From Dehalococcoidia bacterium (GTDB lineage: Bacteria; Chloroflexota; Dehalococcoidia; UBA2979): a DNA stretch of 32,700 bases. Location of the stretch: NCBI GenBank assembly GCA_029246995.1, contig JAQWMB010000025.1, forward strand, positions 1-32,700, written 5' to 3'. The notes below the pieces were generated by a model that was given only the letters and a program-made list of their open reading frames with translations, was not told the origin of the DNA and did not search any database. Below, in pieces: positions 28,190 to 30,035 of the stretch (its first letter is position 1; every line of letters begins with the position of its first letter). The translations under genes and the position numbers were made by a program.

Positions 28190-29137
28190 ATGGATAAAAT
28201 CTTTATAACCAGGATGTTACCTGATCCTGAATTAATAGAAAAATTAAAAGAACATTTTAAAGTTGAAGTTTGGGAAAAATCATTGCCTCCTAATCCTGAA
28301 GAATTGCTTATTAAAAGTAAAAATTGCTGGGGGATGCTTACCATGCTAACAGAAAAGATTGACAAAGATTTCATAAAGAAAAATCAAGAACTAAAAATTA
28401 TAGCAAATATGGCAGTTGGTTTTGATAATATAGACATTGCCGCAGCAAAAAAACAAAAAATAATGATTACTAATACTCCTGATGTACTAACAGAATCAAC
28501 AGCAGAACTAACTTTTGCTTTATTATTATTAATGGCTAAACGATTACCAGAAGCGAACACTGCAGTATTTAAAGATCAATGGGGCCCCTGGCACCCTAAC
28601 TGGATGCTTGGAAAAGATTTAAAAAATGCAAACCTTGGCATTATTGGCCCTGGTAAAATAGCTACCGCTGTTGCGAAAATAGCAAAAAGTTTTTCTATGA
28701 AAATTAATTATTATGGGAGAAAACCAAAAGTTAATTTCCCAGGCACTTATATGAAGCTTGATCAATTGCTAGCAACATCAGATTATCTTTCAATACATTT
28801 ATCCTTGAATCAAGAAACACATCATTTTCTTAATTCAAGTCATTTCAAAAAAATGAAAAAAGATGCAATCTTAATCAATACATCTAGAGGAAAAATCATT
28901 AATCAAAACCATCTATTGCAAGCAATAAATAGCAATGACATTGGAGGTGCTGCCCTAGATGTCACAGATCCAGAACCTATAGGTTCTGATTCACCGCTTT
29001 TAAAGATGCAAAAGATTTTTATTTCCCCTCATCTTGGTAGTGCAACGCAAGCAACAAGATACAAAATGGCTTCAATGGCCATCGATAATTTAATATTATA
29101 TAAAACCAAAAATTACTGTCCAAATGCAATCGTATAG
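28190..29137 (+). CDS. D-2-hydroxyacid dehydrogenase (glyoxylate/hydroxypyruvate reductase-like)
   Basis: NAD(P)-dependent D-2-hydroxyacid dehydrogenase, 315 residues, that interconverts a 2-oxoacid and its D-hydroxyacid. The catalytic set is Arg233 (NTSRGKIIN), Glu262 (DVTDPEPI) and His281 (SPHLGSAT). The nucleotide loop is LGIIGPGKIATA (149-160), with Ala in place of the last Gly of GxGxxG. VGFDNID and TPDVLTESTAELTFALLL are typical of glyoxylate reductases. The residue that chooses NAD or NADP follows INYYGRKPK, where Arg177 and Lys178 might favour NADPH. AAGGA precedes the ATG. The pyrE-like gene follows 21 bases downstream in the same frame. Confidence 0.92.
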   Translation: MDKIFITRMLPDPELIEKLKEHFKVEVWEKSLPPNPEELLIKSKNCWGMLTMLTEKIDKDFIKKNQELKIIANMAVGFDNIDIAAAKKQKIMITNTPDVLTESTAELTFALLLLMAKRLPEANTAVFKDQWGPWHPNWMLGKDLKNANLGIIGPGKIATAVAKIAKSFSMKINYYGRKPKVNFPGTYMKLDQLLATSDYLSIHLSLNQETHHFLNSSHFKKMKKDAILINTSRGKIINQNHLLQAINSNDIGGAALDVTDPEPIGSDSPLLKMQKIFISPHLGSATQATRYKMASMAIDNLILYKTKNYCPNAIV

Positions 29138-29158
29138 AATAGATACAGGAGTATAGCT

Positions 29159-29803
29159 ATTAATAATAAAATAAACTCAGGAAAATTATGGTTAGTTGAT
29201 TTACTTTGGGATCTAGGAGCGATTGAATTAGGTAATTATAACCTAGGGCATACTGCAAAAGATTCTCCTATATATATTAATACAAAAATTGCACTATTAA
29301 GACCTGGACCACTAAATAGAATAGTTGGGTTATTAAAACAAGAAATTGAACTTGTAAAATCAAGAAGGGATAGCTCATTGCAATCTTTTGATATTATTGC
29401 AGGAGTACCAGTTGGTGGATTATTATTAGCAACTGCCCTTGGTTTAGAAACTGGCCAATCAACAATTTATGTCAGAGATGATAAAAAAAATCAATTTAAT
29501 GATCATCAGCAAATTGAGGGAAGTTACTTGCCAGGTCAAACTGTTTTAGTTATTGACGATCTTACAACAGGGGGACATTCGATACAAAATTGCGTAGATA
29601 TATTACGAAATAATGGACTTTATGTAAAAAATGCTATAAGTCTAATTGATAGAGCAGAAGGATCTAGTAAAATGCTTGCAAAGAACGGAATTTCTATGCA
29701 CTCAATAATTAATTTAGAGACACTAAGTGTGTATTTAAAAGAAACAAAAAAGATTACTGAAAACGAATTTATTAGAATAAATCAATATTTAAATGAAAAA
29801 TAA
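29159..29803 (+). CDS. pyrE: Orotate phosphoribosyltransferase-like, probable ATT start
   Basis: Phosphoribosyltransferase of about 214 residues, likely OPRTase, which joins orotate and PRPP in UMP synthesis. DLLWDLGAIELGNYNL and KDSPIYINTK match the OPRTase N-terminus, IIAGVPVGG is the next block, and VLVIDDLTTGGHS is the PRPP loop. The catalytic loop reads YVRDDKKNQFNDHQ, a divergent form. The frame from the previous stop has no ATG, GTG or TTG until a TTG at 29378, which would delete the whole N-terminal domain. AGGAG at 29147-29151 stands seven bases before ATT at 29159, the best start. ATT initiation or a base error in the sequence are the alternatives. It follows the dehydrogenase gene closely. 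Confidence 0.8.
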   Translation: MNNKINSGKLWLVDLLWDLGAIELGNYNLGHTAKDSPIYINTKIALLRPGPLNRIVGLLKQEIELVKSRRDSSLQSFDIIAGVPVGGLLLATALGLETGQSTIYVRDDKKNQFNDHQQIEGSYLPGQTVLVIDDLTTGGHSIQNCVDILRNNGLYVKNAISLIDRAEGSSKMLAKNGISMHSIINLETLSVYLKETKKITENEFIRINQYLNEK

Positions 29804-29819
29804 TAAAATTAGTCAATAA

Positions 29820-30035
29820 TTATAAAAGTGTACCTAAATGTTTTCTACCAGGCCTGGGATCATAATTAGATTTAAAAATTGCTAATTTATCTCGTTTAAT
29901 TAAATATTTACCCGCAAACATAGTTGCTGGAATTCTATCTTGTTTAATTAGCCTACGTAAACTTTGAGGATGTATGCCAATTTCCCTAGATGCCTGGACT
30001 AAATCTAGATAGTCATCAAAAGCTTGCTCTGCCAT
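29820..30035 (-). CDS. Small excisionase/MerR-like helix-turn-helix protein
   Basis: DNA-binding protein of 71 residues with a winged-helix fold of the excisionase/MerR-like type: YLDLVQASREIGIHPQSLRR is the helix-turn-helix, and LIKQDRIPATMFAGKYLIKRDKLAIF is the wing and last helix. A basic C-terminal tail, DPRPGRK, follows. No integrase or att site lies nearby, so it is more likely a small regulator than a phage excisionase. GGTGA precedes the ATG at 30035. Upstream lie a palindrome and a TTGACT hexamer that could form an autoregulated promoter. It is convergent with the pyrE-like gene. Confidence 0.8.
   Translation of the reverse strand: MAEQAFDDYLDLVQASREIGIHPQSLRRLIKQDRIPATMFAGKYLIKRDKLAIFKSNYDPRPGRKHLGTLL

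Follow-up and report, generated by a model that had tools for sequence, protein, structure and literature searches.

A PyrE-like reading frame without a canonical start codon

Where does translation of a gene begin when its frame offers no canonical start codon ahead of the conserved part? The question is raised by a PyrE-like phosphoribosyltransferase gene in the window, by which we mean the whole stretch of 32,700 nucleotides analysed; positions are those of the window unless another locus is named. The frame runs from stop to stop over 221 codons (29138-29803), and its first ATG, GTG, or TTG is the TTG at 29378. Reading through the codons from 29138 to 29377 reveals that CTG is also absent, as a sequence-only reading of this DNA had stated. 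The features concerned are the following.

28190-29137, plus strand: upstream 2-hydroxyacid dehydrogenase gene, 315 aa; its TAG (29135-29137) shares the frame of the PyrE-like ORF
29124-29126, plus strand: out-of-frame ATG that overlaps the end of the dehydrogenase gene; translates as MQSYRIDTGV-stop, lacks a Shine-Dalgarno sequence (SD); rejected
29147-29151, plus strand: SD-like AGGAG, 7 nt 5' of the ATT; GGAG at the corresponding place in G007
29159-29161, plus strand: ATT, proposed initiation codon, from SD spacing, start positions in relatives, and alignment with G007
29159-29803, plus strand: predicted PyrE-like phosphoribosyltransferase coding sequence from the ATT, 214 aa; PF00156, NF010382, TIGR00336, and 2wns matches
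29378-29380, plus strand: TTG, first canonical in-frame start; only AAGG, gap 9; rejected as main start

The dehydrogenase TAG is the previous stop of the PyrE-like frame and lies 21 nt 5' of the ATT. The genome carrying the window is designated G000. G001 is a sister species and the only same-genus genome in the comparison; G007, G021, and G031 represent other genera of the family, and G002 and G011 are also from other genera.

The region ahead of TTG 29378 is real coding sequence. In our start-codon survey, a sample of G000 comprising about 430 kb and 390 coding ORFs, the codon-usage score 5' of this TTG is the second highest for coding before the first canonical start. In the family alignment, invariant residues are spread throughout the segment that the TTG would drop. 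The sequence-only reading put this loss at the N-terminal third, in accordance with the 73 of 214 residues counted here, which are conserved in relatives. A standard gene caller would pick TTG 29378, the first canonical codon, but the resulting short form (141 aa) would lack the conserved third, including the N-terminal W..G..(Q/E)FG and SP.Y.N segments, and only a weak AAGG precedes it. That the short form alone is made is hardly credible.

ATT 29159 as the probable start

The AGGAG is positioned seven bases ahead of the ATT (spacer 29152-29158), as reported before. Among genes of this genome whose SD match at the start spans 5 nt or more, the SD-to-start gap peaks at 6-7 nt, and the gap of 7 is within this preferred spacing. 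The genome background is low: AGGAG at a gap of 4-9 nt precedes 37 of 9,114 internal in-frame Ile codons (0.4%). Codon-wise SD enrichment for ATT was left out as evidence, because it is confounded by ATT immediately 5' of ATG or TTG. An exact-pattern search did not find the 16S 3' end in the assembly, and the pairing with the anti-SD is presumed. Two ATA codons were rejected as starts, one (29153) being 1 nt from the SD and the other (29171) having no SD.

Relatives in the family are 39-43% identical, and their alignment starts at residue 14 (29177); the homology previously placed from about 29189 is real, but its onset is slightly earlier. Each of the 29 family relatives examined begins with ATG, GTG, or TTG, located a few codons 5' of a conserved G-[KR]-L-W motif. 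G007 is the nearest locus match: its MASNNLNHGKLWLAD aligns with INNKINSGKLWLVD of the window, and its TTG start, 6 nt after GGAG, is offset by one codon from ATT 29159. At this ATT, conserved coding begins without any usable ATG, GTG, or TTG, the pattern of an AUU start. For the sequence-only reading, relatives with a canonical codon here would refute the AUU start. Such codons do occur in other genera, but none of the relatives that carry the gene exceeds about 43% protein identity. The gene is absent from the sole same-genus genome.

Could the frame instead be entered from upstream? ATG 29124, in another frame, precedes the ATT by only 35 nt and could be joined if a base were missing; the dehydrogenase TAG 29135 is in frame with the ORF and could be read through. 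However, the ATG lacks an SD, would need an indel, and opens a frame that ends after 10 codons, all of which speaks against the frameshift to another start that the earlier reading had entertained. As for readthrough, the dehydrogenase ortholog in G001 stops at about the same place with no PyrE after it, and an in-frame juxtaposition has a one-in-three chance. Either route is very improbable.

Because the homologous start position, the SD, and other non-canonical starts in the genus (below) all point to it, translation from AUU 29159 is the best-supported reading, with a probability of roughly 0.7. The earlier proposal of an AUU start is thus favoured, although loss of the start in a dispensable gene is still a live rival.

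Other non-canonical starts in the lineage

As a positive control for non-canonical starts in the family we used infC, which starts at ATC, ATA, or ATT in 31 of 31 family genomes read (L068-L098) and has no suitably placed canonical codon. The infC gene of G000 reads AAGGAG-tatgta-ATC (L073, minus strand, about 2003-1509; G000:C23:34343-34834). Further cases were kept only if hand-checked, automatic ortholog flagging having produced many false positives with starts just inside the alignment onset.

An MFS transporter gene of G000 (L100:11981-13144, plus strand) has AGGA, 7 nt, and then ATT AAT CAA ATA. Its ortholog in G001 (L129; G001:C2:91650-92789) has AGGA, 6 nt, and ATT at the aligned position, where a sister genus has TTG: G007, G021, and G031 read TTG AAT CAG ATA. 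The glyA gene of G000 (L103:13498-14784, minus strand), with GAGGAG-gttatt-CTG, appears to start at CTG; the G001 ortholog has ATG there. In G001, a second MFS gene (L153:11768-13081, minus strand) has GAGGA, 6 nt, and ATT, and a LON-domain gene (L156:6023-6706, minus strand) has AAGGA, 7 nt, and CTG; both have ATG in G000. A MIP-type channel gene of G001 (L156:14569-15279, plus strand) has a probable CTG or ATT start. Across these three further probable cases in G001, G000 has ATG or GTG.

In G021, the frame at L175:421-1260 (minus strand) has no canonical start for 73 codons, and GGAG-ttaat-ATT is a possible start. Because this possible case belongs to another genus, an excess of non-canonical starts in the genus of the window relative to the family is suggested rather than established. 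Tentatively, start choice may be relaxed in this genus, such that, besides infC, roughly at least 1% of genes start at AUU or CUG, among them the MFS transporters, glyA, the LON-domain gene, the MIP-type channel, and the PyrE-like gene, some of these starts persisting across species. If so, standard gene callers would truncate or overlook the genes that start at AUU or CUG.

These cases bear on whether an assembly base error turned an ATG or TTG into ATT. Errors or true indels do exist in G000, since ahcY is frame-broken (L102, near 1894). Nevertheless, no frame break is present among 159 G001-matched queries in G000 stretches, indicating that the assembly is good. In addition, other genes of the genus have this kind of start, and for one of them two independent assemblies agree on its position. 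A base error is improbable, and less likely than decay of the gene (below). The ahcY gene itself (S-adenosylhomocysteine hydrolase; L102:1451-2736, plus strand) is split over two frames at the AAACAAAAAAAA run (A8), by an assembly indel, a real mutation, or slippage.

Identity of the protein and possible decay of the gene

In profile searches, the PyrE-like protein matches PF00156 and, over nearly its full length, orotate phosphoribosyltransferase (OPRTase) models, albeit below their cut-offs: NF010382 with E 8e-30 and 103.7 of 208 bits, and TIGR00336 with 85.1 of 106.8 bits, short of the curated equivalog cut-off. The best match among solved structures is the OPRTase domain of human UMPS (2wns, E 3e-25). 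The PRPP-binding motif DD..T.G is intact (VIDDLTTGGHS in the window, VDDLATGGGS in relatives). Absent are the lysines of the OPRTase flexible loop RKExKD(H/Y)G (VRDDKKNQF in the window, RPPREADEV in relatives) and the lysine of LKSG (NLGHT in the window, LGRT in relatives). A second PyrE, of the TIGR01367 type, is encoded on contig C17 of G000 (147.6 bits versus a cut-off of 150.25) and is common to G001; G002 and G011 have TIGR01367 matches above the cut-off. Because of this separate PyrE and the missing lysines, the window gene, judged by its sequence, is a PyrE-like paralogue with uncertain substrate and not the housekeeping PyrE. The sequence-only reading, which described a pyrE-like gene with OPRTase homology, is corrected accordingly: the PyrE of the genome is on C17, and the sister species has no copy of the window gene at this locus.

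G007 keeps the PyrE-like gene in the same neighbourhood of LON-domain, rhodanese, HTH, and ATP-grasp genes. In G001, the neighbourhood is kept and the PyrE-like gene is missing; the dehydrogenase and HTH genes are separated by only about 105 bp. In this genus, and not in G007, the dehydrogenase gene lies between the rhodanese and PyrE-like genes (window 28190-29137; L055:3130-4077). The PyrE-like gene was subsequently lost in G001. The small HTH/excisionase-like protein (71 aa; window 29820-30035, minus strand) is conserved beside the locus in both G001 and G007. An alignment-based scan for PyrE-like relatives returned 24 loci, of which Dehalococcoidia/Chloroflexi MAGs account for 23, and a single-protein scan of named genomes gave no match.

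Because the sister species lost the gene, decay is a serious rival: a redundant paralogue may recently have lost its start and, in early decay, yield little or no protein. The second, TIGR01367-type PyrE, the clean deletion from the same locus in G001, and the lack of a match to the gene in G021 and G031 are in line with such a loss. However, the frame is unbroken over its 221 codons and has normal codon usage, and the SD is preserved at the optimal distance. The identity to G007 (42%) is within the range of the neighbouring genes (34-67%). Moreover, AUU-type starts occur elsewhere in the genus, one being retained in two species. As the main rival, decay of a dispensable gene takes a real but minor share of the probability.

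A model for initiation at AUU

Under the favoured AUU start, the vertically inherited PyrE-like phosphoribosyltransferase would be the second cistron behind the 2-hydroxyacid dehydrogenase. The AGGAG would pair with the presumed 16S anti-SD, recruiting the 30S subunit and placing AUU in the P site, where fMet-tRNA would read it with a third-base mismatch. Initiation would perhaps be assisted by ribosomes that terminate at the end of the dehydrogenase gene, 21 nt upstream. IF3 disfavours initiation at AUU. Because IF3 discriminates against such codons, expression would be low and IF3-sensitive. In S. aureus reporters, AUU and AUA starts give about 10% of AUG (PMC13009471). For the PyrE-like gene, actual initiation, a low yield, and any regulatory purpose are inferred. 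The suggestion that the AUU serves translational control is unproven: RNA structure at the start is nothing special (z +1.1), an Rfam search gave no match at the gathering score, and the relatives carrying this gene, from other genera, start it at ATG, GTG, or TTG.

Relation to known systems

To our knowledge, few bacterial genes other than infC are documented to start at AUU. In E. coli, pcnB is a non-IF3 gene that starts at AUU with reduced yield. Like infC of E. coli and S. aureus (AUU, AUC, or AUA), the PyrE-like gene has an Ile codon behind a good SD as its putative start. Whereas the infC start is conserved and autoregulatory, the AUU here is on a metabolic paralogue whose relatives use ATG, GTG, or TTG. 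S. aureus cvfC1 (AUU) and ccpN (AUA) are likewise non-IF3 genes with reduced yield (PMC13009471). They have an extended SD, in contrast to the 5-base SD here, and were demonstrated by ribosome profiling and reporters (PMC13009471), whereas the PyrE-like case is predicted from sequence. The start is thus of a known kind (infC, pcnB, cvfC1, ccpN), of which the PyrE-like gene is probably a new member. At the protein level, homology to the PRK13809/NF010382 OPRTase and the human UMPS domain (2wns) covers nearly the whole chain, and the DDxxTGG PRPP motif is common to them. Unlike OPRTase, the PyrE-like protein falls below the NCBIfam cut-offs and lacks the catalytic-loop lysines, and its genome has a separate TIGR01367-type PyrE.

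More interesting than the single gene is the possible accumulation of such starts in one uncultured Dehalococcoidia genus. The PyrE-like gene, a case well supported at the sequence level, led to others in this lineage, among them an ATT start that aligns between two species. Should non-canonical starts be common there, such MAGs would have systematically truncated gene catalogues, and the lineage would offer a natural setting in which to test how strict the control of start codons by IF3 has to be.
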